Assembly (NCBI GenBank): GCA_028583605.1
Contig: CM053327.1
Location: 12,635,629 to 12,699,628, forward strand
Direction of reading: 5' to 3'
Source: Dastarcus helophoroides
Taxonomy: Eukaryota; Arthropoda; Insecta; Coleoptera; Bothrideridae
Length of the DNA: 64,000 bases
The position numbers were made by a program, and so were the translations under genes. Positions 10,506 to 52,600 of this stretch are shown here, one piece after another. The notes under the pieces are model-generated. The model saw only the letters and a program-made list of their open reading frames with translations. It made no database searches and was not told the origin of the DNA. How positions within the stretch are numbered: position 1 is the stretch's first letter; every line of letters starts with the position of its first letter.

Positions 10506-10746
10506 AATTTTTTTTTGGTGGAACGGACTGGTTCTTGGTTATCTTTAAAAATTGAAATACAAATCTTGTCCTCTGAAACCAAGAAAGATTGAAAAACACA
10601 ACAAAGGTTGCTTTAATACGTTTTCATAGCTAAGCTATCACCTTCAGAGAGATACTAAGAGCTACTAGAGAGATACTAGAGCAACCTTTGTTGTGTTTTT
10701 TATTCCTTCTTGGTTTCAGGGGATAAGACTTGTATTTCAATTCTTG
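10506..10746. repeat. Hairpin repeat family, copy A
   Basis: This is an inverted repeat. The left arm has attgaaatacaaatcttgtc, ccaagaaagatt and cacaacaaaggttgct; the right arm has the complement (gcaacctttgttgtg, cttggtttcaggggataaga, ttgtatttcaatt). The centre keeps a decayed gatagct...ttcagagagatact. Related copies lie near 13261, 23361, 24975, 31671 and 41233. It begins with ggtggaacggactgg. Confidence 0.8.
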
Positions 10747-13260
10747 AAACTGAAATTTTTAACTTCGTTTAAACTTTGATTTTCAGTTTAATTTTAAATT
10801 TATAATTTCGACCCTTTTCATTAGATTATTGAATCTAACCGTAAAATTTTACGTTCAAAATTAAAATGTTATGATTATGAAAAATTGATTCTATAAAATT
10901 TTAACAAAAATCTAAAAAAAATAGTTGAAATCTATAAAAGAAATAAAGAATTTTTGGATTTGATGCAGAAAAATGGATGAACATTTTAAATGTAAATCTA
11001 AATTTAAGATTTGAAATGAAAATCTAAATATAGGGAAAACGGTTTAGTAGAATAAAATTTTAGATCAAAAATTTTAAGAGAAGTAAAAATTTGAAGATTG
11101 AACTGGAAATTTTAAAATGGAAATTAAAGTCCCCAGAAAAAACTGAAATTTAAGTTTAAAGCCAAAATTTGGAAAAAAGTAAAAAAAGACTTAAAATTCT
11201 GGGACAACATAATTCGAACAACAAAACTCGAAGTTTAAAAACAAATATTCGCACTAAATCTCTACAATTTTCAGAAAAAAAGTTGAAATTCCCAATGTGG
11301 AAAAAAATTTCAGACAAATTATCTAGAACTGGAAATTTGGATAAAAACTGAAAAGAGTGAAATTATTATTAGGTTTAAGTCAAAATATGTCGTTAAAAAG
11401 ATGTTACCATTTCGAGTTGAAACTCGAAAAGTCGAAATTTATTAGAGTCCGACCAAAGTTTGGATTTCTGTTCTAGTCTTAACCAGTTTCGGCTAAAAAA
11501 TCCGTAGTTTTGGTTTAGGCCCAAAATAGGTCAAAACTTTGCCCTAGCATAAATTTCAATTTGTAAGTTTACGTTCGGTTTTAAAAAACACAAAATTTTA
11601 AGAAAAAATGTTGTATTTATATAAAAGAAATTCAAGATTTCACCCCATTCATATTTCGTGTTTATAATTTATAAAATCAAAATTTTTAAGTTTTGAGTAA
11701 AAACCTTCAGAAAAAAGTTGACATTTAGAAAAAAAACTAAAAGTATATTAGAACTGATTTGGTGCAAAATTATGGGAGATAAAATGGTTTTCATGGCGAA
11801 AAATCATGTTTTTTGGCATTTCCCGATAATAGAATAAACCAATTATTATTAATAATAATAATAATGTATTCCTAAATTTTCAGGTTGCTGTTGCAAAAAA
11901 AACTGAATTTTAGAATAAAATTTCCAGCGAATAATTATTTTGAAGTTTCGAAAGAAAAAGTAGAAACTCCAAAGTTCTGTAAAAAAGGACATATTTTTAT
12001 CTAAAAATTTTGCACAAAACAATTAAAAATTTTAAATTTCAACTAAGAATTATGCAAAGAAACTCAACAATTTCGAATTTATGCACCAATTTTCAATTTT
12101 AATCCCGAAAATTCGGCTTGCGACTCTAAGATTCGAATTCTTTTTCGAAGTTTTTTTGATTAAATCCAAGATTTCTTTGAAATTTAAATGTCAGGAAAAA
12201 ATAACATTTTAAATTTAGTCGAATATTCGATGAAAAAAATAAAAAAATTTAAGGTTAAACTTTTTTTCAGTTACTGACTTTTTTGTGGGAATTTCAACTT
12301 TGAAGTTAAAAACTTATAAAAAAATGTAAAATTATTTAGCAAAGGAATGTAAGCTTTAACATCATATTTCGATTAAAAAAATAGAAACTTTGACAAAAAA
12401 TTAGATTAATTTGGAATTTTGATAAAATTACGACTACTCGATTTTTTGCTGAGAATTAAAAAAAATGAGATTAATTTGAACGACTACTCAATATTTTGCT
12501 GAGAAGTTCACAAAAAAAGGAAATTTTAAGGTTGAATTTTAAGGTCAAAATTTCCCTCCGAACCTAAAAATTTCTTAAAAACTCTTAAGAACATTCTTGG
12601 TTTCGTTTTAAAAATTCCAAATTCTTTTTTTATTTTCTAAAAAATTAGTTCCTCAAACTTGAGATGACTGCTCTCTTTTTTCGAAATTTAATAATTCCTA
12701 ATTAATTTTTAAAACTTTCTCAGCTTTGATGGAAAGCACATCTCTAATACAAAATGTCTTTATTTATTCAAGTATTTAGTTAAGACTGTTAAGAATAAAA
12801 AATAAAATAGCTACTAAAGTAGCTAATTTGAAGTTAAAGTAGTAGCTAAACATTTAAATTTACTGTTTATGTATATATTAATATCATTTTCAAGTTTTGT
12901 TTTCAGTTTCGTTTTCTGCCGAAAGTAGTGTAGAAGCCGAAATCCGGTTTCGGTTTCGGCCAAAAATCTAGTTTCGGTTGGTCTCTAAAATTTAATAGAA
13001 ATCATTTAGTTTTTATGTTTCAAATTTTGAATAAAATATAAGATACAAATTGCAAAATTAATGTCCAAAAAATTAAGTATAAATCCAACATCAAGGAATA
13101 GGTGCATATTGAGTATAAAGTCGAAATTTTGGGTTAAATAGTAAAAAATTGCTGATTTATGGTTGACATTTTTAGACTGTTTTTAGAGTTTCAAAAAAGT
13201 GGCAAATAAAGTAAGATAATGTTTAAAATTAAATTAATTAATATTCCTGGGATAACTTTG
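10747..13260. repeat. AT-rich quasi-repeat, no gene
   Basis: Long low-complexity stretch dominated by GAAATTT, AAATTTTG and GTCGAAATT variants on both strands. There is a (taa)n microsatellite at about 11847-11866 and tttcggtttcgg runs near 12945-12980. No protein or RNA gene recognised. Confidence 0.5.
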
Positions 13261-13530
13261 CTGGAACGAACTGGCCCTTGGTTATCTTTCAAAAATTGAA
13301 ATACAAATCTTGTCGCCTGAATCCAAGAAGGATTAAAAAACACAACAAAGGTACCTTTAACGCGTTTCGATAGCCTAGCTACCATCTTCAGAGAGAAAAT
13401 ACTACTTTTAGGATTAGGTGTTAATATCTCTCTGAAGATGGTAGCGTGGGTATCGAAATGCGTTAGAGCAACCATTGTTGTTTTTTAATATTTCTTGTTT
13501 TCAGGGGACAAGATTTGTATTTCAATTTCC
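13261..13530. repeat. Hairpin repeat family, copy B, with hammerhead-like arms
   Basis: Same family as copy A. The right arm (+) has ctgaaga at 13432-13438, an imperfect stem and gaaatgcgttag at 13455-13466. The left arm has the inverted equivalent (cgtttcgatagcctagctac then catcttcag). Flanks carry ctggaacgaactggcccttgg. Confidence 0.75.
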
Positions 13531-17307: not shown

Positions 17308-19640
17308 AGTAATATAACGAATATTCACATCTATTTTAATATTTGCATTCGCAAGAAATTATACGAATATATTGCAAATGTATTTGGCAGCAAGACGGGA
17401 AATTATTTATGAAATAACAATGCAACTGCTAAGGGTTTCTAAAATTGGCGCTCATGGACCCTTGAGAGGGAGCCTATGGGCAGCGTAGCTAACAACATTT
17501 TTGAAGATAGTAACTAAACCAGTAATTTATCTAGTCCCATGTCATAAAAAGTATTTTTAAATTTCCTTGCTTTCTTTTCCTTTTAGTTAGCAACAATATG
17601 GCAGGGTGGGACACTTGCTCTCCCCTGGTTCATACACCCAACCGAAAATTTATGTTCTTAACTGCGAGAGCCTTTTCCAGAAATTCTAATTTTTTTTAAA
17701 TTAGCCCTTTCCTTGAAATTTCGACATTTCCTCGAAATTTCGACTTCTTTCTCAAAATCCACCTTTTTTCACAAAATTTCCCTTTTTCTTTAGAAATTTC
17801 GAATCCATTCTAAAATTCGATTTTCTTAAAATTTTAAATTATTATCTTAAAATTTGTCGTTTTTTAAATTTTCGTTATTCCTCAAAATAAGATTTTTTTT
17901 GAAAATTTCTACTTTTTTTTAAAATTAATCTTTCTGAAAATTGGTAGATCTTTTCATGAAAAATTAAAAATTAAAAAAAAACATTCATCTGGAAATTTTA
18001 AAATCTTTTTTAAAAATATTAAATTTTTGTAAAAAGACCAAAATTCCAGAAATTTCAAATTCCAACTTGTTTCTGAAAATTTCGTGGTTTATTTCAATAG
18101 TGGATATTTTCTGCATGTCACAGTTGGGCAGCGAGGGTAGGAGCTTGTCCTTCACTTAGGTAGCCGTTAAAAAGTAAATATTCAGTCTAAAAATTTCGAC
18201 TCTTTTTCTTGACATTTGGAATTATTTTTCTAAAATTTTCCCCTAAACTGGCCCAGTTTCGAAATTTCGACAAAATTTGACTACATCTGGGAAATTTTGG
18301 CTTTTTACTAAATTTCTACTTTTTTCTCAAAACTTCGATGTTTTTCTCAAAATGTCGATCTTTTTCTCAAAATTTTGATATTTTTCAAGCAAGTTTTTTT
18401 AAAAGAACAGGTTTTCATATTAAATTTGATTTTTAATTATAATTCGTCTTTTTCTGAATTACGACTCTATTCTCAAAATTCTACTTTTTCCTCAAAAAAT
18501 TGAATATTTTATAAGAATTTCAGCGTTTTTTCAAAATTTTGACTCTGGAAATTTTAGCCTGATTCTTAAAATTCGTTTTACTCTCGTTTCGATAAAATTT
18601 TTACCTAAAATTGAGCTCCTCATAATTCGTTTATTTTTCTAAAATTGAATTAAAATGTTCGTAAAAACCTAAAAATGGTGAAAATAATAATCTTACGAAA
18701 TTTAGAAAGAAAATTTCTTGTAAATTACGAGGTTATGTCAAATTTTAAATGAAAATAAAAATTGTAAGAGAAATATTTTAAAAACTGGGTTTTTGCTCCA
18801 ATTTCGATTTATTCTACAATTGCTAGTTTTTTTTTCAAGTGCTGGTGAAATAGCCAACATTCGCATTCGTGAATGTTTGAAATGAATATTCGCAATGTGA
18901 GAAAACCAAAATTCATTAAATCCCTAATATATATAGATTAATTTTGATGACTGCCTATGTTTTACTCACAAATTGTCAGTTTAAAGTCGAAATTATGAGT
19001 GTAAAGTCGAAATTTCAAGATTAAAATCAAAATTTCCGGATCAAAGTTGATGATGCGATGCGATAATAAATTCGACATGTCGAGATTAAAGGTGAAGTTT
19101 AAGGAATATAGAGAAATTTTAATACAGAAATAAATATACATGAAATATTGAGGAAAAAGTGGAAATTTTAGGAAAAACTTAAAATTTAAGTTTTTTATCA
19201 ATTTAATTTATTTTGTTACTGAGAAATTTTGAGTTTTAATTCTAAATTTCGAGTTAAAATCAAAATTTCGAGATTAAAATGAAAGATGAAGAAATTTTAG
19301 CCGAAAATAAAGTAGACATTTTGAGATTAAGGAAGAAAGAGTAATAATTGATATTAACCATTAATTTGATTTTTCATCAACAACCAACCCCAAAAACAGA
19401 TTATTTTCATGTAATATATTTTGGAATCATCTGTTAAAAGACAAGTAATACAATTTATCGAACATTTCTAGCTTTAAATCATATACTACATTAAATAACA
19501 TGATTTTTATTGCAAAAGGAAAAAACTCCACGATTTGGCAAATATGGTATTTATAAATTTAATTGCTTTGATTATAAGAATAATGCTGTCTACGTAGGGA
19601 GGGCAAACATCACGTAACTTTTACATTAGGTATAGTGTCT
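17308..19640. repeat. AT-rich quasi-repeat, no gene
   Basis: From 17640 to 18760 the plus strand is full of ttctcaaaatttcgac words. From 18960 to 19340 the same word appears on the other strand (aaagtcgaaatttcgagatt) with about 22-bp spacing, i.e. a diverged tandem array. 17308-17640 looks unique but has no recognisable gene. Confidence 0.55.
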
Positions 19641-19870
19641 TCAGAAAGATCAAATTCTTCACACATTTATTAGAAACGCAACATCAATTTACAACTGCTA
19701 ATACAGTGGAATCTTATACCTTTGCTACAAAAAACTTAATTTTTGGGAGAGAAGTTCACAAATATTTACAGTCTGGACAATTTACATTCATGAGCGAGCA
19801 GCTAGATCTTCTGAACACACCTTTGATAGAAGCTTTGGATGATGTTCGGATTAGACGAAATAATTCGTAG
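19641..19870 (+). other. Unidentified open stretch without start
   Basis: One plus-strand frame stays open for about 75 codons up to TAG at 19868. It includes NLIFGREVHKYLQSGQFTFM and SEQLDLLNTPLIEALDDVRI. Composition is protein-like compared with its surroundings. I do not recognise it; it could be a decayed transposon coding segment or an orphan exon. Confidence 0.3.
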
Positions 19871-20054
19871 CAAACTGTGATCCATGAAGATTGCCAGCAT
19901 AAAAAATGCCGAACAAACTACTGATACAATCGCCGATGGTAGTAAATAGCGAGACATGGTCCAGTCACATCAAATAATTGTCTAAAAACCAGGCAATTTT
20001 TAATATTCATTGTTGTATTTATTGTTTAAACTAATTTTTATTTTTTTTTGTTTT

Positions 20055-20755
20055 TTTCAATTTATTTAGCATTTCTTTGGCCCAGTTTGGAAATATTTAA
20101 ATTTTTATGGTTTGTTGACAATTTTCTAAACAGTTTTTGAAATGCGACTACGTGATATTTAAATTTATTGAAAACGTCACTTCATGACAGTTCACAAATT
20201 AAGAGGTTATTTTATTTTACATAGAATAGGAATAATGAAAAATTAGATATGGAAAAAATAAAACTTTTGTTTTTTTTTGATAAATTAGGAAAATATAAAA
20301 AAATACCTAAAAAGTTGTAGCACTGGACATCAATGTTTCGCTCTCATTTGAGCTCGTCAGCAGTGCATAACATGGAAAGGAAAAAATGAGGAAGAAATAC
20401 TTAAAAATAATTTTTTTTTTTTTAAATATAAAAAAGAAAAATAAAGAAATTTTAACATGAATAGACGTTTCATCATCAATTTACTGTGTTAAAAATTTAC
20501 TGTGTTAAAAATTTAAATATTTGAAGCCCGATCCACAAGAAACAACTACTCCGAGGGCTAATACCCCTTCCGGCATTGAACTACACTCGTGGGTCGAACT
20601 TACATGCTCTTGGTGACTACTGTTCCTAACCGCTGAAATCTATTCAGCTTGGTAGTTAGAAGCACTCACCATTTGCGGAGTCCGTTCGTTCCGTTAGAGG
20701 AATAGGTTTAAATATTTCCAAACTGGACCGAAGAAATGTTAAATAAATTGAAAAA
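20055..20755 (-). mobile_element. About 700-bp inverted-repeat element carrying a hammerhead ribozyme
   Basis: The left end (20055-20105, ...tttatttagcatttctttgg, then cagtttggaaatatttaaat) and right end (20705-20755, inverted) match over about 45 bp with few differences. The centre holds a complete hammerhead fold on the minus strand (20320-20366) and a less AT-rich block at 20520-20700. No protein is visible. Probably a non-autonomous element. Target duplications not seen. Confidence 0.65.
20320..20366 (-). ncRNA. Hammerhead ribozyme, type I, all core residues and three stems present
   Basis: Read on the minus strand: GCACTG (20366-20361) / CTGACGA core (20360-20354) / stem II GCTC, loop AAATGA, GAGC (20353-20340) / GAAA core (20339-20336) / stem III ACAT with a 2-nt loop and ATGT (first A shared with the core, 20336-20327) / cleavage triplet GTC (20328-20326) / CAGTGC (20325-20320). 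Stem I (GCACTG with CAGTGC) is perfect over 6 bp, stem II over 4, stem III over 4. CUGANGA, GAAA and NUH are exactly the hammerhead requirements. Self-cleavage would fall after 20326 (minus-strand reading). Activity is inferred, not shown. Confidence 0.85.
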
Positions 20756-21059
20756 AACATAATATTTCCGGTCAATAAGGGTCTACCATGAAGAATATTT
20801 TTATTTATGAAAGAGGCATAAATAAAAATTTGAAATAATATAGAATATTAATAAAAAAGTCGTAATTTCAGGAAAAACAAACATGAAATTTATATTTAAT
20901 TGATATTTATTGATTATATGTCACTAACATAGTGCAAGGCTAAAGTCTAGATTGAGATTATAAAGTCAAAATTCCAAAATTAAATTCGACATTTCGAGAT
21001 CAAACTTTATACTTTAATATTAAATACGACATTTCAAGATAAAAGATAAAACATATCTG
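20756..21059. other. AT-rich, no gene seen
   Basis: Low-complexity sequence with AAATTTCGA-like words between two small elements. Confidence 0.35.
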
Positions 21060-21512
21060 AGGGTACGTTTAGACTTGAGACTTATTTCATGATAGAAATC
21101 TCAGGTATCTGGGACTAAATTTCCTTGCCCGTTTACGCTGTGACACAATTATAGCTGAATAAAATTGCTGACACTTCTAGCTGAGATAAAGTGACGATAT
21201 AAAATGCCTTTGCTACTAAAAATAATCAAAATTTGTCTAATTAAATTTGCATATTACTTGTATGGAATAGTATCTTAATATTATAAGGGATATATAGTTA
21301 ATCGCATGAAATTTCTCAAGAGAATATAGACGACTACAACTTCTAGGATATATGTCAGACACTGGCTGAAATTTGTGTCGACATTGTATGTTGAGTAATT
21401 TATTTTAGCTGTTTGATTAGTCTCAGATAGCTTCTCTCAGGATGGTTTACACAAGATATAGTCTTATGCCAGAGAGAAATATACGGAATAGTGTTTAATC
21501 TAAACGCACCCT
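21060..21512. mobile_element. MITE with AGGGTGCGTTTAGA ends (hAT-like)
   Basis: The left end agggtacgtttaga (21060-21073) and right end tctaaacgcaccct (21499-21512) form a 14-bp inverted repeat with one mismatch. The 453-bp interior is non-coding. The end sequence resembles hAT-type MITEs; no clear 8-bp target duplication was found. Confidence 0.6.
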
Positions 21513-23360
21513 AAGGAATAAATCAAATGTTTAACTGTGCACGAAATATTGGGGGAAAAATTTAAATATCACAAAAAAAAACCTAAACTAATCCCAAAAA
21601 ACACAGTCAAAATTTCTTAAATGAGTCAAGATTTTAAAATCAAAACTTTGGAGAAACTCATGATATAAATTGCAAGTATAAGAAATTAAAAGAAAAAAAA
21701 GTTGTAATTTCACCGTTTTTCAACATTCTTAAATAAATGTTTACCCTAACTTACTGCGGCACGTATATGTCTTAGTTGTGGTGCGGTGGTAAAAATTAGC
21801 AATGATGTCTCTTTTACCTAATAATTATTTATTTCATGGTTATATGACACAGTTTAACTTTAAATGCACACATGCCCCAGGAGCATATAATAAACTCTCT
21901 TGAGTCCTCGGAAATATGTATCGCACATATAAATTAAAATCATATTTTTCTTCGTTGCAGTGAATGCAAAATTCGAGAAAATAATTACAAAGTAATTTTT
22001 TTTTATTTCTAGTACAAATTTCAATTCTAACGACATTTTATTGTAAAACGAAAGAATGAAAAATGAAATTTTAAATTGGAATTGGAATTAAATTTCGTTG
22101 AGTTGAAATTTCAGATGTATTCGAAAAATAGTTGAAGGTATGTACAAAAATAAATTCTCTAAATGTCGAATTACATTTTAAAATTTTGTTATAAAGATCG
22201 CAGAGATACTTAGTTTACCAGAAAAATAAAAATTTTGACCATTAAATTTTAAAAATCGGATTGTAAATTGTAAAACAAATTCTTAGAATTTCGAGGAAAA
22301 AGCAGATCTGAAAAATTTAAAAGAATATTTATATTTCTAAACAATCTTAAATTTATGTCCTTATCTTACATTTAAAAAAATTTGATATTAAAAATTTGAG
22401 AAATTGTTTCAGAAAAAAATAGTTCTTCTTAATATGTTTTTCTTAATATCGAGTTTAAACAGAGAAATTTTTGAGAAAAAGGTAGAAATGTTTATAACAA
22501 AGTCAAGGTTGAAAAAATAACTTGAAATTAATTTTTAAAATCTTGAGAGATAATTCGAAATTTTAAGATCAAAGTTGAAATTTTAGAACAAAGTCAATAT
22601 ACTTGGAAGAAGTCAAAATGTTGTATTTAAAATGGAAACTTTAGGAAACCAGTATAAAGGTATAAATCTAAAATTTTGGGGAACATCGACAAGATTTACA
22701 AAAATCCAAAATTCGAGAGTTTCCACTTTTTAATTAAATTTTTAGGAAAACGAAACCGTTATCACTTTGATTTTCACCTCCGAAATTATCAGTTAAATCG
22801 AGTTTTCATTAGATATAGATAAATTCAAAGTTTATTTTTGAAATTATTTTTTGAATTTACTGATTTGTACTTTCAACATTAATTTTTTTCAAAAATTTAG
22901 GATTAAAATTTGAGATTTTTTTAAGTTTACACGTTCAGCTATTAATTTTTTTCTTAACATTCTTATTTTAAATTTGAAACACAAATTTTTTCTAGATATC
23001 AAGCTTCGAATAAAATATGTAAGAAGGACATCCTGAATACTTTCAACATTATATTTCCTGCAAAGTTTTGAAAGGTTTGATTCCATAATGAATTAATCCA
23101 AATTTTTTACGAATTCATTGTTAGACATGGTTTTTGGGAAGTCCCACAGTCTGAATCTATACCCTCATAGCTGTGTGCAAAGTTCTGAAGGATTTAGTTC
23201 ACAGAATAGGTAAAATATTTTAGACAGCTGATTCACATAAAATATTTTTTCGATCTTCCAAAAAAATCTAAGACGACGTGATCTGCACTAAAAGTTTTAT
23301 TTAAAGTTAAAAGTCACAATATCAGTTTTTCACAAATGATTTCTAAACAGCAAGTTTTAT
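21513..23360. repeat. AT-rich quasi-repeat, no gene
   Basis: 21513-21960 is ordinary AT-rich sequence. From 22020 onward variants of AAATTTCGA and AAAGTCGAAATT recur. 23100-23300 looks more unique. No gene recognised. Confidence 0.45.
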
Positions 23361-23526
23361 AAATTGAAATACAAATCTTGTTCCCTGAAACTAAGAAAGA
23401 TTAAAAACACAACAAAGGTTGCTCTAACGTGTTTCGATAGCCAAGCCATCATCTTCAGAGAGATACTGTATCTCTGTTTTTAATCTTTCTTGGTTTCAGG
23501 GGACAAGATTTGTATCTCAATTTTCG
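23361..23526. repeat. Hairpin repeat family, copy C
   Basis: aaattgaaatacaaatcttg opens it and ggacaagatttgtatctcaa closes it in inverted form. The left arm has an inverted hammerhead-like core (gtttcgatagccaagccatc, then atcttcag). The right arm is shortened, lacking the second core. Confidence 0.75.
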
Positions 23527-24974
23527 AAGATAACCAAGCAAGTCTTATTACAAAATTTTAAACATATACTTATACTTTGAAGTATCCAAAAGGAAATCAA
23601 AAGATTTTTTGCAGTTCTAATCTTCGTACTTTCTGCAATATAAATTTAGAAGTCTGGAACCTTTTTAATTTAGAGCACACCACTGCTGTTACTTAATATT
23701 TATTCATTCGAGGCCACAAAATGTTTCGCATAACCTTAGCTTCCAGCACGAATTAAATTATCGCTTGCTCACGAAGTGTGAATGGACAGGATATCTACTG
23801 AAAGGTTTTTACAATTAGTTCAAAGAAATTAATTAATTAATTTTTTTGTCGATCTGTTGCAAGTTAACTGAATTTCTGTGACCTTTTTAGTTACAATGAC
23901 CATGAAAGGAAGTCGATATATAGTACATCGAAAATCTTAAGATGAAAATTCGGCTTAACATTGACAAGTCAAAAGTATGACATATACATGAAATGTATCC
24001 TATTTGTTAAGATTTTTCTATAGACTTTTCAATAGTTTGCGACTTCATTTCGGTCATTTTATTGTAATCAAAAAGCCACATAATATCTGAGAGATCAAGA
24101 TCTAATTTCAATTCAATAAAATTTATAAATATTTGACAAACAAAATTATTTATAAAGAGAAGGAGTTTAAATATTTAACCTGCGGGGTACCTGCTTCAAC
24201 AGAATATGAAGTTTAGATTTTTTTAAGGATCTATTCGAAACGAAGATTTTTTAAATGTTTTTCTCCGAAGTTCCAATTGTTTAAGCAGAAAAAAACGTTT
24301 CATTTCAAAAATGTTATCTAGGTATTGAAATGTTGAGTCTTTTTAAAATTTACAGATGAAATTCAAAATTGCGATAAATAAATTTGATTTCCAAAAAAAA
24401 ATCTAAAATTGTAAGTTTCCACTTTTATTATTTTTTATTTTTTCTGATATTTTGCTCTTAAAGTTTAAAAAAGGGTATTTTTAATCCCACTTTCGAATTT
24501 TCAAGTATCACACAAAAAATTTCGATCAGATTTCCATATACATAAAAAAATAGTTTAAGTTGGTCTATTGACTGCTCACTCTGGTCATATTGGTACGGAC
24601 ATTTAATTGTGCTAATCTTTTCTTATAATTTAAATATCAAAATCGAACTTCTAAAGGATAACTTGAAAAAAAAAACATATATTTCCCAAAATTTCAAGTT
24701 TCCTCTTTTGACATTCGCTGGCTTTTTTCTAATATTCAGATTTTAATCTGAAACTATCGATCTTTACGAAATATTCTGATTTTTTCTTTAAAACCTATAT
24801 AATCTATAATCTCAACATTTTTGGTCTTTATTTTTAAAATATTGAAATCAAAATAGGGATTATTCCGTGGATCAACTCTTTAAAATCCTTCATTATATGG
24901 ATCAACTTGTTAGACACTCTCTGCAGAAAATTATTCTGGAAACATTCAAACTGAAGCTTTAGGAACTTCATAAA
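23527..24974. other. No gene seen
   Basis: 23640-23800 has near-balanced, unique-looking sequence; the rest is AT-rich. No frame, splice pair or RNA recognised. Confidence 0.35.
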
Positions 24975-25162
24975 GAATTTAAATACAAATCTTGTCTCCT
25001 GAAACCAAGAAAGAACACAACAAAGGTTGCTTTAACGCGTTTCGATAGCCAAGCTATCATCTTCAGAGAGATACTGATATCTCTGAAGATGATAGCTTGG
25101 CTTTAAATGCGTTTTTTAATCTTTCTTGGTTTCAGGGAAGAGGATTTGTATTTAAATTTTTG
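24975..25162. repeat. Hairpin repeat family, copy D, best-preserved hammerhead-like arm
   Basis: The left arm read on the minus strand has CTGAAGA (25066-25060), one extra T, a perfect 6-bp stem GATAGC/GCTATC with loop TTG (25058-25044), GAAA (25043-25040) and the palindrome AACGCGTT ending in A. The right arm has ctgaagatgatagcttggct in direct orientation and then decays. Outer arms carry cctgaaaccaagaaag and its complement. Confidence 0.75.
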
Positions 25163-27304
25163 AAGATAACCAGTCCGTTCCACCAAAATTCCTAAAGAAT
25201 GACATTTTCTGCAAAATTCTAAAAAAAAATCCTCTGGATGAAGTACTAAAATTTTCTTAAGAAAACTATTCTGCAATCGTTTATAATGATTACCCTACAG
25301 ATGAAAACTGGTAAAAAAAACCATAATTTGCTGTTCTAAGTTCAAATAAGCGCATTTTGTAGATCAGCTCTTTAAAAGCATTTAGTCTATGGATCAGATC
25401 CTTGAAATCTTTCTAGAAAATTACGTTGCAGACATTACATTTTCACTCTACAAATTAAAACCTTTAAGAATTTGTAGAAAATCATATTTAACAAGATTTC
25501 TTTAGAAAATTTACAGATTCATTCTGTGGATCATGTTAGAATATTTGTGTAAAAAAAGGTATGCTTGAATCATTAAACAGTCGCCGGAGGTATTATAAGT
25601 TAAGAAATATTTTAAGAAATCGTATATTACTATAAACTTCCCTAGAGGATCATCTGCCACAATATTTTCTCGAAGTGACAAAAAATGCATCAAATCTTTA
25701 AAATTATTGTAAAAAATTACGCGAGAAGCATTGGAGACTGTCACATAAAGATTAAAACTGTAAAGGCTTCGTAAACAAAGATCTTCAGTGGTTAGTAAAT
25801 AAAAACCTTCAAACAAAAAGCAGTATCTGGATCAAATCTTACAGTCTTTGTAGGAAATCGTCCCTAAAACGTTTAAGGCTTTATAGAACATTTAAAACCT
25901 CTAAAAGATTAACATTTTTAATGCAAAGAAACTAAAAATTAATCATTCCTATAATTTAAAAATTTCAAAAAAAGTTCAAAATGCCCAAATAATATGTTTA
26001 AGCGTTGAGTGTTTTCTCCCAATTTGGAATTTTTTGAATCCGTTAAAAAATGTTAGGTTTTCTATGAAAAGGCAAACATTTTGGTTGTAAGATTGAAATT
26101 TTAACCATAAGCTGTAATTTTGAAACTTTAACTTTAGATTTTTTGAAAAAGAAAGATATTCCAGGAAAGAAGCAGGAGATTATTTGTAAAGAAACTTGTT
26201 AATTTGGAGTATTTTCTCAAAATTTATACTTTTTTTTCGAAATTTCCAGTCTAAATTGAAAACTTAAAATTAAAAAATTTTGGTTTTCATTTAAACAGTA
26301 CGATTTTTTTTGTAAATTTTTGATGGGTTTTCGTTTTGAGATCCCACATCTCACAGAACAAAGAAGAGCAAGACTCTTGCTATCAAGACTAGAATCAAAC
26401 CAGCAAGAAATTGGCAAAACAAGAAATAAACCAACTTCTTGTCTTGATCAGCAAGGCAAGGCAAGAAGGTGGATAGCAAGACAAGAAATCTTGCTTTGTG
26501 CATCACTATTTCTGAGGATCAAATCTTTAGAAACTTTGTAGCAAATTGAATCAAGACGAAATAAGTAGGAACGAATTGCTAGAGGTCGTCGACTTAATCC
26601 CAATTATTTTATTAGATAGATCTTAGATTTTTTGTTTTTCTCCAAATCGATACAATTGAATATTTATAACTTGGGTCTAATAATAGAGCTCGCGAAGTGA
26701 TGGGATTATTGAATTATTGAACCGGTTCAAATATTAAATAATGTCGTCAATACAACTAATTAATTTTAATTGGGTAATTCAAGTTGCGTCTTGAGGAGAG
26801 TATCTTTGAACTGATTCGTTTCGATACAAACTTCGATTGGCATTGCACGAAATACTGACCCGGGTTCAATATCAACTAATTGCGTTGCGACGTTTATGAA
26901 ATTTACAATCTCAAAGAGGATATCCGATGAACTTCTCCAGAACCAATCCACACGATGAATCTTAGTTTCCGAAGTTACTGCAGATTTTAATTGAAAAACA
27001 ACTCAACAAGAATTCGCAAGATTTGAGCTACATACTAGATAATCCTATTCAAAGTTTTCAAAATTTACCCCTCTAAGAAATTTCTAGCAGTTAAATCTTT
27101 AAAATCATTCTCAAAGGAGTTATCGAAGATTTTTTTTTAAATTTAATTTACACGATATTTTAAAAACATAAAGATGGTTGGGGGTCTTTAACAGGGAGTT
27201 TTAAAAACTGTATTCTTTAGAATGATTTATTAAAAAAATTAAGGATATATTTCAACAGACGAAGGTTCTCTACCGATCCTGTTTAATCGTTAATAATTAT
27301 TATG
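25163..27304. other. No gene seen; short unclassified repeat at 26330-26515
   Basis: 26330-26515 is rich in caagaaat, gcaaggcaagg and cttgcttt words and includes gctttgtgcatcac, suggesting a decayed element. 26700-26960 is unique-looking and holds a 14-bp perfect palindrome ttgaaccggttcaa at 26717-26730. The remainder is AT-rich without coding signal. Confidence 0.4.
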
Positions 27305-31670: not shown

Positions 31671-31796
31671 ATCTTGCCCCTTGAAACAAATAAAAATTAA
31701 AAAAAAACAACAACACTTGCTCTCATTTGCTGCAAGTGTTGTGGTGGTTTTTAATTTTTCTTGGTTTCAGGGGACAAGATTTGTGTATCAATTTTT
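31671..31796. repeat. Hairpin repeat family, copy E, short form
   Basis: Arms with cccttgaaac / tttcaggggacaagatttgt and cacttgc / gcaagtg flank a short loop. The central hammerhead-like part is missing. The flank aggactggtccttggtc matches other copies. Confidence 0.65.
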
Positions 31797-32459
31797 GTAA
31801 GTTAAGAAAAGCAGTAAAAAGAGCACAATACCATAATTCAGTATGAAGAAAACCATTTAATAAATTAAATATAGTAATCAAAAATAAGGCAATTTATCTG
31901 TTTTAAAGGAGCAATGTTGCAACTAATTAATAGCTGCTGACTACTACATTTGCGTAAGTTGTCAATAATTAATATAAACAAAAATGAATAATTTTTAAAT
32001 ATCAAGAAGTTGTGATAAAAATGGGAAAAATTATGTATGCGAAAAAGAAGCCTACACGACTGAAGCAGTTTATAAACAAACATCAAATTGAACTAACCCA
32101 AAACTCAACCTCCATCTAAACAAGTTAAACACACTGCATCAATCTTCATTATTATTTTAATTGTTTAACAGTAGAATCACTGTGCATTATAACAGTAAGG
32201 ATTATAGTAGTTTGAGCAACAAAAGCGGAAATGATGATAGTCTTAATTAATTAATACAACAATTAATGTGAAAATTAAAGAAAAATCACTTTCATTTCCT
32301 AGTTTTAAGTTTTCACTTATCAGCAGTTCCCTGAGTGCCTATTTTTTTAAAATTACACCATTATTGGTTACTACTAATTCATCTTTTCCGAAATTTGAAT
32401 TGTTTTTTAAATCGGTTTTTCTGGAAATTGTAACTCGTTTCTTACCATTTACCTTTTTG
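31797..32459. other. No gene seen
   Basis: AT-rich sequence without recognisable coding or RNA features. Confidence 0.35.
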
Positions 32460-40597: not shown

Positions 40598-42365
40598 CTA
40601 ATCACAGCTGTAACGAAACAGGTACAACCGCATAGAGCCCAGTGCTAAAGGGGCCCATAAATGTCGATTTTTTTTTAATTTAAAGATTGAAGTCGAAATT
40701 TTTAAATTAAGCCCGAAGTTTCGATATTGCAATTTTAAACTCGAAATTTTTTGATAAAAGTTTGAGGGTTTAAAACCAAAAGAAAAAAGTCGGAACTAAA
40801 AATGAAATTTAAAACCAAATTCGAAAAAGTGAAAAAAAAAATTTAGCACTGTCTTTTTAAATATACATTTTTCGAACTTTGTAAGATCATATCCAAAATT
40901 GTAAAAAGAGAATCAATCTTAAACTTAAAATTTCAATTTTTTATTGATAACTTTTTTCGATATTTCGACTTTTTTCGTGTACATAGTCAAGATAATCTCA
41001 AGCTTACAGTTGGAATTTTTAACAGATCGAAAGGCCAAAAGATTTAAATTAGCAAGAAGTGCATAAAAATGTCATTAGTAGAAATGGTTCGAAATTTCAT
41101 AATCACAATATTTTGATTCGAAAGAAAAACTGAAAAAAAAAACGTAAAAACAAATTCAAGTAAGTTATTTTAGAAATGAACTATTTCTAGAAATTCGGCT
41201 TAAAATTAAAAATTTTGACGTTGTCCAAGTATTAATATATAAATTTTGTCCCCTGAAACCAAGAAAGATTAAGAAACACAACAACACCTGATGTAACGCG
41301 TTTCGATAGCCAATCTATCATCTTCAGAGAGATACTAAATAGCTTGGCTATCGAAACGCCTTAGAACAAGTGTTGTGTTTTTGTATCCTACTTGGTTACA
41401 AGGGATAAGATATGTCTATCAATTTTTAAATATGATCAAGGACCAGTACGATCCTTTAGAATTTTTCTCTAAGTTCTAACATTTTTTAAACCTTCAGAAA
41501 AAATTTCAAATCTATACTTAAAATCTTTCAAAATTTTTAACCTAGCCGAAGCAAAAAAGTCAAAGATTTAAATAAATAGAAGTTAAAAAATGTTATTAGA
41601 TTTGGAGCCTTTCCGAAACCATATTCTTACTTTCTAAAGATAGTTTAAGAAAAATCTAATTTAAAAACTGAGATTTTCTCGAGATTGACTTTTTTAATTT
41701 TTCTGTTCTTTATTTAAGCTCTAAACTGAAAATGTTAAAATTTAAATTCAAAATTATGATCTTTTTCTGGGAAAAAAGTTTTATACAATAAGTCAGCGCT
41801 ATTTTGAAATATATGAACTTTCCCTGAGATCTAATATTTTAAAATGTGTAACAAAAATTCATTTTTGCACAAAACATCTTGAGTCCACCATGAAGAATAA
41901 TCTTGAAAAGGAAGAAATTTGGAGCTTGTTTAAACAGACAAGCTTGGAAAGCGTAACTGAATTTTCAAATTCGAAATAATGAGGTAAATATGAAATGAAG
42001 CAAGACATTTTCGGAAAATTCAAAATGTCGAAAAACTGATAACAATTTTTTCCAAATTTCTCAAGATAAAAATCGAAAGGTTTAGAATATTTTATCACTA
42101 TTTGAGATATCGTAGTTTACGATGTATTTGATTGTTATTTGAAATACATTTCAAAATTTTCAAATTTAATTTTCTTGACGATATTAATAAAATTCAAAAA
42201 ACCTTATATCGCTGGATAGAGAATTAAAAACCATTTCAAATTAGCTGTCACACGCACGGAGGGATATTATGCTAAAAAAAATGTCATTTTGAAATTCGAC
42301 GTGTTTCAGGATTTTACCCATGCATTGTAAATTACGTAGATAATGAATTTATGCGTTACTTTTGA
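40598..42365. repeat. AT-rich quasi-repeat, no gene
   Basis: GAAATTT and AAATTTCGA words dominate 40660-42200, interrupted by hairpin copy F. No gene recognised. Confidence 0.45.
41233..41428. repeat. Hairpin repeat family, copy F
   Basis: The left arm has cctgaaaccaagaaagatta, cacaacacctg and a minus-strand hammerhead-like core (aacgcgtttcgatagccaat, then ctatcatcttcag). The right arm has atagcttggctatcgaaacg and ttggttacaagggataaga but has lost the CTGAAGA half. Confidence 0.75.
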
Positions 42366-46651: not shown

Positions 46652-49600
46652 GTAAATAATGGCCACAGAGTTCGTTTTACCTACTGTTTTTGCAAATTTC
46701 AATTGTAAACGCATTTTTGTTTATAAATTCTGAATGTTTTCAATATTTTGGCTTTAGTCTTCAAATAGAAATTTATTTTTAGAAATTTCGAACTTAAAAC
46801 TCGATTTTCCGAAATTCATACGATTTTCTATTATTGGCGTAGCTAGGGAGTCCAAGGGTGGTCAATACCCACCCTACAAAGCTCATTGCCTACCCTAGAT
46901 ATAGCATACATTTTTCATTATTTAATTACCGAAATTGAAGCCTTGCGGTGGCAGATTGCCACCCCCCCCCTCCCTAGATTTTCGGTTGCCACCCTAGGGA
47001 AAACCGTAGCTACGCCACCATATTTTCTATTCGATACTTCAATTTAAACTCAAAAATAACACATCTTCCAAAATTTCGCTTTAATCTTGAAATACTAATC
47101 CTTTTTTCTAGAAAAAAAAAAGAAATTGTTTCAATGTCCTCAATTTAAATTTCAAATTTTAGGTTTAAATAAAAACATGAATTCGTTAAAACATTACCAG
47201 AATTTTAAGTTTAACTTCAAATTTTTAAACCTCGACTTTTTAGGAAAAATGTGAAGTCGAAATTATATCTTAAAAAAGATTAAAATTTTCAAGATTGAAT
47301 TAAAAATGTTAAGGAAAACATCTAAATTTCGATAATGCGCCACAGAACGTATAAAATAAAATCGAAAATTTTAAATTTATTATTGAACTTATAGGAAAAA
47401 AGGTTAAAATTTCAAATGTAAAATGGAAATTTTGCCAAAAAAAAAATATTAAAGAAATGTCAAGAATAGGAAAAAGGTGCATCTGCTTTCCTGAAGTTTT
47501 AAGAAAATAAATCAGATGTTACCAATATTTAGAATACAATATCGAAACTTTGGAAAAAATGTAAAAATTATAAATTTATACTCGCCAATTCGAAAATAAT
47601 TGGACAATTTTTAAATTAAATAAACAATCCGAGATTTTGCAAAAAGTTTCATTTTAAACCAAAAATTTAAAAAAATCGACTTTTCGAAAGAAAATTCGAA
47701 AATAAGATGGCATTTTCTTGAATTTTGGATTTTCTCGTAATTCTGAGGTTAGGTGCGAAAATTCTAGATTAACATCTAAATTTTGAGAGTACCTTAAGTT
47801 AAAATTTCGAGAACAAAGTCGAAATTTCGAGACAAAGTTCGAAAATGTGAAAGCAAATTTGGAAATTTCGAGAACAAAAGTCGACAATTTCAGACAAAAG
47901 TTGAAATTTAGAGAACTAAGGTCGAATATTCGGAAATAAAAGTTGAAATTTCGACAACAAATCTAAATTTTCGACAACAAAATCTAAATTTCGAGAACAA
48001 AGTTGAAATTTCCGAGATGAAATTTGAACTTACCAGAATAAAATTTAAAATTATTGAAAATGTATAACAGTAAAAAATTTCCTGTTTAAAACATTATTAT
48101 TTATATAAAAATAGAGTTAAAATTTTAAGTTTCGATTCGAAATTTTGATGAAAAATTGAAAACTGAAACGCAAGTACTTAAAAATAACTAAAATATTTCA
48201 CACTAGGTCCGGAAATTAAGGAATATAAAAAAATCCCAAAATTTTAGGCAATTTGAAAAGGTGTGTAACTTAAAGAAACATAGTTATTAAGAAAAAAAAA
48301 CAAATTAAACGTCCAAGTTTCTAGTTTTTAGACCGTGCATTAAACATTTTCTAGGTTCAGCAGTTTCAAATTAGAGATTAGATTAGATTATATATGAGTC
48401 GTTTCGTGTTTCTTTTTGTGATCTTTTGTGCATATCCTGATCTATGTAGTTCCCAGGTTCAAAGTCTTGTAGAAGTTTATTATGGACCTGTGCCGAGTTT
48501 TTCCATATCTGAGGGGTTTAAGGATGCCCATCCGAGTTGGACATGCCTTTTGCATGCACGCGCATCGCATTTGCATAGCACATGTTCTGCAGTCTCCGCA
48601 GCTTCTCCGCAAAATCGACAGGGGTCGGTTTCAGCTTGACCCATTTTCTTGAGGTGATACCTCATAGGGCAATGTCCTGTTAAGAGGCCGGTTAGTATCC
48701 TCAATTCGAATTTGCTAAGTTCTAAGTAGACCTTTGTCTTTTCAAGCGTTTCCAGATATGAATCTTTTCCCCTGTCGTAATCCTGGATATGATCCCTAGT
48801 GGGGAAATTATTGAATTTGCTTCTTGTTGATCCTGTTGTGTTTAACCAGTTCCCTTAGAGTTTGTTGACAGTCTCAAACTAGTTTGGATGTGATAATGCA
48901 ACTGCTAAGAGCCTTTATTGCGACTTGATTGTCAGAGTTAATGTAGACCTTTGTTCCTTTCAGGTTTCTTCGAAGGACACTCGTAGGCGCAGAGTTCTAT
49001 TGCATGTATTTCATTTGGAAAGATAATTGGGTCTTTTGCTAAGGCTCTAGGGAACCTAAAGTTAGAGCCATGAATGTTCAGTCCGGTCCCATGTGTTATC
49101 TTTAATCCATCTATAAACCAGATGGAGAATTTGTGGATAATTTAGGTATTGATTAAGCGTCAGTGTAGCTATTTAGGTCCACTTCAAAGGAATGATCAAA
49201 TTCGTATCTGGGTTGTATATAATCAACCGATCTTGCTAAAATCACAAGGTTACATTCCTTGCGGATTCCCATGTGACCAATGGAGTCTCCTTTAAATTGT
49301 TTTAGTTGCAGTAATTTTGAGGCTCCTTTGATTGCCTCTCTCTTTACTAAAACGTGGAGAGGAGTTAGACCTAGCATTACCTCCATTGCCGCTGTTGGGC
49401 AGGTTTGGTTTTGTGCTGTCTTTTTCGTTATTTTTGGCCACCATACTAAAGAAGCATATGTGATCAGTGGTGTAATTATCATCCTATATGACCAGTAGAT
49501 CGGTTTCAGACCCCAGGTTTTGCTGAATAATCTATGGCACGTCCAGAACGCTGTCGTGGCTCGCTTGATTATTCGAGTCAAATGAGGATTCCAGATGAGC

Positions 49601-52600
49601 TTTTGGTCTAGGACTATTCCTAGATATTTAATCTCACTTGAGAAGTTAATGTTGAACTCCATTCATAGTGGAAGCTGTTAGATTTAGCTTTCTTCTCTTT
49701 GTGAAAGAAATCATTATTGTTTTATTTGTGTTTACACTTAACCCTTGCTTTGAACACCAGTTGGTAATGGTGTTTAGGGCTTTTTGCATTAAATCCCACA
49801 GGATTTTATCGTTTTTGCCCCTGATAATGACAGTAATATCATCTGCATAACCTATTGCTTTAAAGCCTGAGTAATGCAGTATCTTTAGGAGGTCATCAAC
49901 CACAATGGACCACAGCAGTGGAGATAAAACACCTCCTTGGGAACAACCCCATGCTGCGCTCACTCTGACTAAGTCACTGCCTAGGGTTACTTTGATTCTC
50001 CTAGCATCTAATATGGAGACTAATCCAGTCAACAGTAGGTTTCTCAAAACCTTTTTTGATAGCTGAGGTGTTATCAAAAACACTAGAATTCTTTCTTTGT
50101 TTGAGTATGCACTTTCTATCTTTTTGACAAGATTGTGTAAGGCTGCCTCTGTGGAATTTGCGTTGGTTCATAATTTTCTCCATTGGTTTAAGGAGAAATG
50201 ACGGTGGACTGAAGGGTCTATATGATTTAGGCTGCGCAGACATTTGTTTGCCTGCCTTTGGTAGCTAGACCATATTTATGTCTCTCCAGCTTATAGGAAT
50301 GTAGCTTAATGTGTAACTAGCTCTGAAAATAAGTTCCATTATGCCATGCTGTAGTAGGGCTGGGAAGATTTTATCTTTTCCTGGTGATTTATAGGGCTCA
50401 AAGGAATTTATCGCCCATTTTATCTTGTTTTTTGTAAATATTTTCCCCGCCAGGCTTTTTACTCGATTGTAGAGGTGTAAATGGTCCCCAACAATCGCAG
50501 CACTGTTGTGGGTATTTTTAATTTCTGTAGATCCAAGAAAGTGTGTTTGCATAAGCAGTCTTACACTTACCAGGCGGTTCTTGGTGTAACTTCCGGTTTG
50601 GTGTTGGAGAAGTCCTATTTCGTCCGAGTGATCTTTGGATAGGATTTTCTGAAGTCGTATTAACTAGGGCACATCTCACAAAAGCTCTTCCATGATTTCC
50701 TTTTAGATCTCCTAAGCTCTTTGTTGTATACTGTTAAGGCTTTTTTGTATTCGCCCCAGCTATTGATGCGTTTAGCCTTATTGAATAGTTTTTCCGTTTT
50801 GGCTCTTAATTTGCTGAGCGTCCTATTCCACGAGGGTGTTGGATTTATTTGCAACCCTTCGTTTTACTGGACAGCTGTACTCATAACTGTTTATTATGAG
50901 AGCTCTCACTTCGTTAGCATAATATTCTCAATCATCAACCGTTTCAATTGAGTAGTTGTGATCATTAATTTCCAATTTAAGTTGGGTTCTATATAGATCC
51001 TAATTGGATAATTTCGGGTTTCTGTATTCACTGAAGGCATTTATTTCAGCGTCTATGTGACTGTGGTCCGACATTGAGGTTCCTTATATGGTTACTGATT
51101 GTCGTGCTCGCAAGGGTTAGATCTAGTACCTCCTGACGAACGATGTTAGCAAAAGTGTTAATAATGTATTATATATCGCTAGTGAACAAATATTCAACAG
51201 GGCACTCACCTCTTTTATTTGTGTTTGTGCTGCCCCATAAAATATGGTGGGAGTTGGGATCACATCCAAGTATGAGTTGTCTGTTCCTTATTTTGCAGCA
51301 GCTAATGAGTCGTTTGACGTCCTCTGGTGGCGTCTTTATTTCGTTTCCCGTTCAGCACTTATAAGAAAATCCTGGGTCAAAAATGTTTTAAAACCTTTGC
51401 TTACTTTTAAGAGGGTTCACGAACGTCAGTAATTTTTTCCAGTGATCTCATTACACCGCTCTTCCAAATAATTTTAAATCGTTTACAATTTAACTGATCT
51501 CTGACCCTTCTATGATGATATTTCGTTGAGTTGTCATCGTTCAAAACAAAAGGCAGGCATTTTTGACTTCGATAATCAACAATTCAGAAAATGATGATCG
51601 TATAGAAAATGCGAGAAGATTTTTTGAAAACTGCAATGCATTCTCTACAAGTCTCAATCATTCACTTTTGATAAGCAAAAATTATAACTATTAAATTATA
51701 TTAACGATAAATACAACAAGGGGTATTAAAAATTCCATAATGTTTCTATAAATATTTGCTATGAACAGACCTGGCTTCGCTTTTTTTAAATAAAAACATT
51801 GTGAAATTTTTAATATCTCTTATTGCATTTAGCGTTAACAGAGTTAAATAGCAATGAATATTGATGAATTCCGCACAGTAAGGGTTAAAAATGTGAATTA
51901 TTTTAAAAAATTTTAGTGATTGAAAGAGAGGTAAAAATTTTTGTAATTTGGGATATTCGTTTAAATTGTACTTAACTTTGCAAAGAATAAATAAGGCTAT
52001 TGACTATAACTTTACAACTTCAAAAGATCCAAAAGGAAGCCTGGAAATTTCAAAGCGCTAAGATTTTTCATTTTGTCCAGAATGACTGAATATTTTGCTC
52101 TTGATAAAAATCAATTTAGGATAAATTTTTTACTTTTTATTCATTTTTTTTCATATTAAAGATGGTTTTTTATTCATTAAAAGATGTTAATTATGTAATT
52201 CAAGGACTAAAAAGTAACTTTGAGCTTTGATTTGCTTTTTTTGTATTTTTCTCTATGACCATTTTGCTTTGAGTTATAGGCTTTTGAGAACTACGAATTA
52301 CCTAAAAACTAGGGATATACATACTCCTTATTTTCTCAGCTTAAGTAAGTTGAAACAGCAAATTTCAACAAAAAAAATAATTATAATTTTTCAATATCCA
52401 TAAAATCGGGACTAAAAAGGGTTAATTTTTGTATCTAGTGTAAGTCGAAACTGTACTGTTTGACTGGTTTGAGTTGTAGGTAGAAATTTTTGGCAAAACT
52501 GAACATGTTGGGTTAAACTCTGAATGTTTAGGAAAAAAGCTGAAATTTAGATGATAAATCGATATTCATAAAAGACGGTGAAAAAAAAACTTAAACTTTT

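Follow-up and report, generated by a model that had tools for sequence, protein, structure and literature searches.

The 752-bp insertion at positions 20046 to 20797 of the window (the whole 64,000-nucleotide stretch of Dastarcus helophoroides DNA that was analysed) consists of two arms of one 711-nt repeat that meet head to head, and a type I hammerhead ribozyme motif lies within the longer arm. Judging from its sequence, the element is probably, at a probability of roughly 0.8, a non-autonomous animal (non-LTR) retrozyme that has no protein, has an unusually long unit of 711 nt and was inserted by the machinery of Penelope-like elements (PLEs). An earlier sequence-only reading of this DNA had found the hammerhead motif, which was confirmed, and had interpreted the element in a way that was only partly supported. 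Its proposal that the element has an RNA stage was right. The features of the insertion are as follows.

20034..20043, no strand assigned: left target-site duplication of 9 or 10 bp, ATTTTTATTT; a further two T precede the insertion
20046..20797, no strand assigned: the entire 752-bp insertion, a head-to-head pair of arms of one repeat, from alignment to the 711-nt unit
20046..20710, minus strand: long arm, unit 325 round to 291, with a tailless 3' end at 20046
20320..20366, minus strand: type I hammerhead ribozyme (cleavage predicted), from sequence reading, Rfam and a core-plus-stems scan
20525..20705, minus strand: G+C-rich block, about unit 330-517, approximate bounds
20707..20797, plus strand: short arm, unit 236-326, with a tailed 3' end at 20797; overlaps the long arm by 4 nt
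20763..20797, plus strand: tail of about 35 nt that separates site 1 from site 2, the alternative 3' ends
20797..20806, no strand assigned: right target-site duplication ATTTTTATTT; its first A is possibly the insertion's own

The sense strand of the unit is the minus strand of the window, and each arm of the window copy is shorter than one unit. The element had been described as MITE-like, with terminal inverted repeats of 45 bp, an end at about 20762 and the hammerhead in its middle. Instead, the end is at 20797, the inverted arms are 56 nt long at 93% identity and represent the 3' ends of two RNA copies, and the hammerhead sits within one arm of an unequal pair rather than in a symmetrical element. 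Two 5'-truncated copies placed head to head are the Penelope layout. The absence of a protein was borne out, with no open reading frame of 120 codons overlapping the insertion. The G+C-rich block diverged between copies as little as the ribozyme and matched no Rfam family. A tRNA- or 5S-like origin of this block was considered and dropped, with no such Rfam match and no tRNA detected in the window by ARAGORN.

The minus-strand sequence of the ribozyme, 20366 to 20320, is GCACUG-CUGACGA-GCUC-AAAUGA-GAGC-GAA-ACAUUGAUGU-C^CAGUGC, with the predicted cut at the GUC site between 20326 and 20325. As had been claimed, every core residue of a type I hammerhead (CUGANGA, GAAA and NUH, with three stems and open at stem I) is present. 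Stems of 6, 4 and 4 bp had been reported; stem I (6 bp) and stem II (4 bp) agree with this, but for stem III the best reading is 3 bp closed by a UUGA tetraloop, because the fourth pair would leave a loop of only 2 nt. In most copies stem III is a perfect 10-nt palindrome, ACAUCGAUGU, and pairing between two molecules could also occur. A scan that demanded the full core, at least 5 bp in stem I, at least 4 in stem II and at least 3 in stem III gave one match in the window versus none in 300 dinucleotide shuffles, in keeping with the earlier judgment that a chance match is very unlikely.

Covariance and folding analyses, both suggested earlier as checks, were less clear. When positions 18000-23000 were searched against Rfam at E values up to 1, the sole match was RF02275 (Hammerhead_HH9) with an E value of 1.4e-07, which supports the motif, and a score of 39.3 bits, which does not reach the gathering score of 52, an outcome that had been named in advance as counting against the motif; no Rfam match over the window reached its gathering score. 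HH9 is an isolated motif in amniotes. It was the best Rfam match to the ribozyme, stem I internal loop included, but the window hammerhead and all 26 hammerhead copies that RF02275 matched in 17 of the first 30 loci (31.5-40.7 bits) scored below gathering. The catalytic fold was not favoured when the 67-mer at 20310-20376 was folded freely (z, -1.14; 26 of 200 shuffles equally good), and for the family-majority 47-mer it had an energy of -10.4 kcal/mol versus -12.9 kcal/mol for the best fold. Folding alone would therefore have missed the hammerhead, because free folding prefers another pairing.

The family is dispersed, as had been supposed: the 539-Mb assembly contains 1,896 ribozyme cores with up to two mismatches, compared to none in the reversed control. 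The search for other copies with paired stems was successful, with an intact hammerhead in 69 of 78 copies. However, covarying stem changes, which had also been sought, were not found among these copies, which are too alike (57 of the 78 are identical) for the stems to be proved by covariation. Older copies of the unit, with 76-84% identity, were seen at L013 500-739 and at L072 10-170 and 954-1235 and could be a source of covariation; in the older L072 copy, hammerhead letters lie upstream of the alignment and stem III is altered. Selection on the ribozyme was considered on the basis of its lower divergence (0.9% versus 2.9% elsewhere) but is not claimed, because 25 of 89 G+C-matched windows were equally conserved.

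The evidence for the mode of insertion comes from 55 insertions, 40 scored by the first search and 15 from a search with the 3' part of the unit. This second search gave 40 main places, 5 of which were already in the set; 15 of the other 35 were read, all on one strand and as stretches of 1.3-1.5 kb. The insertions share one structure, a head-to-head pair of arms of the 711-nt unit, in which each outer end corresponds to an RNA 3' end and each inner end to a 5' truncation whose place varies. Outer ends are located at one of two positions, unit 284-300 (site 1) and unit 317-340 (site 2), separated by about 35 nt; the windows for them were chosen after the ends were seen. In all 40 of the insertions that could be classified, a tailless 3' end was paired with a 3' end bearing a tail of about 35 nt, in a count that omits copies with less than 88% identity or shorter than 240 nt. 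The other 15 were unclassified, either because only one arm was detectable (n=10; L004, L007, L030, L051, L055, L073, L075, L076, L077 and L080) or because the second end was aberrant or cut (n=5; L011, L058, L069, L072 and L074). By eye, a 9-nt second arm from site 2 in L051 agrees with the one-tail rule, but an 18-nt second arm from site 1 in L030 contradicts it. The longer arm was the tailless one in 25 and the tailed one in 15 of the classifiable insertions. Target duplications of at least 8 nt flanked 28 of the 40 insertions from the first search, versus 3 of 393 mismatched flank pairs. Among the 100 core places listed, 10 of the 10 inverted pairs less than 2 kb apart were arranged minus then plus (by eye; at least 3 of the 10 fall in loci already read), and there was one close tandem pair (by eye). 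Tandem units also occur within arms, with 13 of 50 long arms exceeding 850 nt and the longest reaching 2,031 nt.

PLEs that could supply the enzyme are present in the same genome. GIY-YIG matches were found in 91 of 150 scored among 1,070 candidates; L046 has RVT_1 and GIY-YIG in one open segment, and GIY-YIG is also present in segments of L047 and L048. The PLE family represented by L047 has its own minimal hammerhead, with 20,168 copies (up to three mismatches; control, 0), and inserts as short head-to-head pairs. Six of these pLTR insertions, carrying the full or partial minimal hammerhead, were observed in the window.

10514-10748: GIY-YIG PLE pLTR pair
13254-13528: GIY-YIG PLE pLTR pair
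23361-23538: GIY-YIG PLE pLTR pair
24973-25190: GIY-YIG PLE pLTR pair
31673-31805: GIY-YIG PLE pLTR pair
41246-41465: GIY-YIG PLE pLTR pair

Among 19 such pairs, from the window and from fetched loci, one tailless and one tailed end were found in all 9 that could be classified, and the tail of this family is also about 35 nt. The available portions of published work describe a PLE protein that cuts and extends both target strands, with cDNA started at two adjacent sites, which accounts for the tail of genomic PLEs (PMC11167929), and rotifer Penelope elements with head-to-head pLTRs and 8-10 bp target duplications, in which one pLTR of the inverted pair may carry a 31-bp tail (PMC3846280). The 711-nt unit is linked to PLEs because the GIY-YIG family obeys the same end rule and because of this published priming. 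The PLE mark thus recurs from one retrozyme scar to the next, and a PLE family in the same genome bears it too.

Comparison with these known systems indicates where the element belongs. With metazoan non-LTR retrozymes, as far as the accessible text of PMC7229834 describes them, it shares a canonical type I hammerhead, the lack of a protein, low G+C content, tandem and dispersed units and coexisting PLEs with minimal hammerheads. It differs from them in a unit of 711 nt rather than about 170-400 nt, which is a reported range and not a strict limit, and in the arrangement of its insertions, which are paired head to head and carry 3' ends of the PLE type; this text does not describe such an arrangement. 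With PLEs, on the portions of PMC3846280 and PMC11167929 available, it shares head-to-head arms with outward 3' ends, short duplications of 8-10 bp, tandem units, start sites 30-40 nt apart that give a tail of that length on one inverted end, and a hammerhead in the repeat. An autonomous PLE has an open reading frame with reverse transcriptase (RT) and GIY-YIG, and no such frame is present in the 711-nt unit. The hammerheads of PLEs are minimal, whereas that of the unit is fuller, with a stem I internal loop. When the unit was compared with 15 PLE loci of the genome, no sequence similarity was found, and none of them has its 3' region; Rfam detected no hammerhead in these 15 loci and only weak microRNA and sRNA matches, and a regular-expression search found minimal hammerhead cores in them. 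Coexistence, together with type I hammerheads in both, has led PLEs to be named as likely mobilisers of animal retrozymes, and in the available parts of these sources the link is proposed without demonstration (PMC7229834; review, PMC7761336). Searches limited to open-licence papers brought up no evident description of the insertion ends of animal retrozymes.

A mechanism can be outlined from these features. The element would be transcribed in the sense of the window's minus strand; the hammerhead would cut the multimers to unit length, and a host ligase might close the units. The RT and GIY-YIG nuclease of a PLE would then cut both target strands and prime a cDNA from each, with site 1 as the start of one cDNA and site 2 as the start of the other. 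Joining of the two cDNAs would follow at the ends away from these starts, often where a few bases match.

The ribozyme cut left little trace in the insertions. Although L012 and L020 hinted that 5' ends gather at the cleavage site, only 2 of 77 arms began within 3 nt of it, versus 0.7 expected. Because the 5' ends are not piled up at the cut, cleaved linear RNA is not the main template, and because 57 of the 77 arms also run across the predicted cut, the template at that point was either uncut or re-ligated. In four arms (L073, L056, L004 and L080) the start lies at unit 16-18, immediately past the hammerhead, and in two (L075 and L077) it lies at unit 677-678, where the hammerhead core starts; perhaps these are stops at the folded ribozyme.

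An uncut template is what would be expected if the element were a short linear PLE derivative whose RNA has a 5' end set by a promoter near unit 310-336, so that the hammerhead and circles would be irrelevant to insertion. This alternative deserves serious attention, although we consider it doubtful. Among the long arms (600 nt or more), 34 of 50 stop between unit 230 and 336 (by eye), and hammerhead mutants still insert in vitro, according to the portion of PMC11167929 available. Stops at unit 309-336 occur in arms from both sites (6 of 27 from site 1 and 7 of 22 from site 2, by eye; the L004 arm was assigned to neither site), which is what a fixed RNA end predicts and hints at one. However, the stops are scattered over 100 nt rather than placed at one base, and arms of up to 2,031 nt require a circle or a multimer. 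Stops at unit 280-303 were seen in 6 of 27 site-1 arms versus 1 of 22 site-2 arms (by eye), a contrast that hints at one lap round a circle. In addition, the stops were sampled with a 717-nt query, which biases the sample toward arms over about 660 nt.

Within the reading as a PLE-inserted retrozyme, it is a tentative and somewhat unlikely possibility that circles are the direct template of insertion. In that case, two reverse transcriptases would start on one 711-nt circular RNA, at site 1 and at site 2 and on opposite target strands, and each would copy round until it met a cDNA start. Such a template, if real, would account for the rule of one tail per insertion, for arms one lap in length and for the fact that 5' ends do not gather at the ribozyme cut.

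Inverted arms joined at their 5' ends are also produced by twin priming, so that movement by a LINE reverse transcriptase rather than by a PLE has to be weighed. Broken frames that resemble a LINE reverse transcriptase (YADD motif, by eye) lie at 48480-50663 on the minus strand of the window. Arms made by twin priming on a single RNA have one 3' end between them. In contrast, both outer ends are RNA 3' ends here, at two fixed sites 35 nt apart in all 40 classifiable insertions, and the GIY-YIG family obeys the same rule; movement by a LINE enzyme is thus improbable, even though 15-bp duplications of hammerhead repeats in sea anemone have been likened to those of LINEs in the accessible text of PMC4918200. 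A MITE, a cut-and-paste DNA element of fixed length with matching terminal inverted repeats and a hammerhead by chance, would account for the inverted ends, the target duplications and the absence of a protein, but is hardly credible given the tail on only one end, the inner junctions that vary between copies, the arm lengths of tens of nt to 2,031 nt and the units in tandem.

If the element is a PLE-inserted retrozyme, the enzyme that moves animal retrozymes can now be tested for from genome sequence in other species, and head-to-head insertions of PLE type may lie behind other short elements that have been classified as MITEs. The strictness with which one tailless end is joined with one tailed end hints at the way in which the two target strands are primed.

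The 5' ends of the PLE family were also compared with its own hammerhead cut, in 45 of 46 arms (the arm L006 2223, which a retrozyme copy splits, was dropped); the edge of a locus truncates two of the 45. Four of the 45 start exactly at the cut (L016 2688, L022 583, L047 3975 and window 31723) and 6 of 45 within 3 nt of it. These starts are a lead only, in that microhomology in stem I (CUCU/AGAG) could place the junctions. Thirteen of the 45 arms start 37-50 nt upstream of the cut, about 30 nt after a TATATAA box.

Several other repeats were observed. At L006 1230-2325, a retrozyme copy sits within a PLE pLTR pair, and at L048 117-3506 a tandem array of roughly 285-bp units lies beside a PLE copy. 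A second dispersed family, in repeats of roughly 110 bp that are arranged head to head in L020, has hammerhead-like motifs with a near-palindromic stem III at the following positions.

Window 34300, plus strand: second hammerhead-like family
L020 791, minus strand: second hammerhead-like family
L040 1326, minus strand: second hammerhead-like family
L034 2701-2806: second hammerhead-like family

A third minimal hammerhead-like motif, CTGAAGAAGCCCCC..GGGCGAAACGTCGAACA, which we take to be of a kind known from PLEs, occurs at window 32716 (plus strand) and L041 2726 (minus strand). TTAGG arrays, as expected of an arthropod, are also present in the genome, with 7,110 overlapping matches versus 135 for the reversed control.
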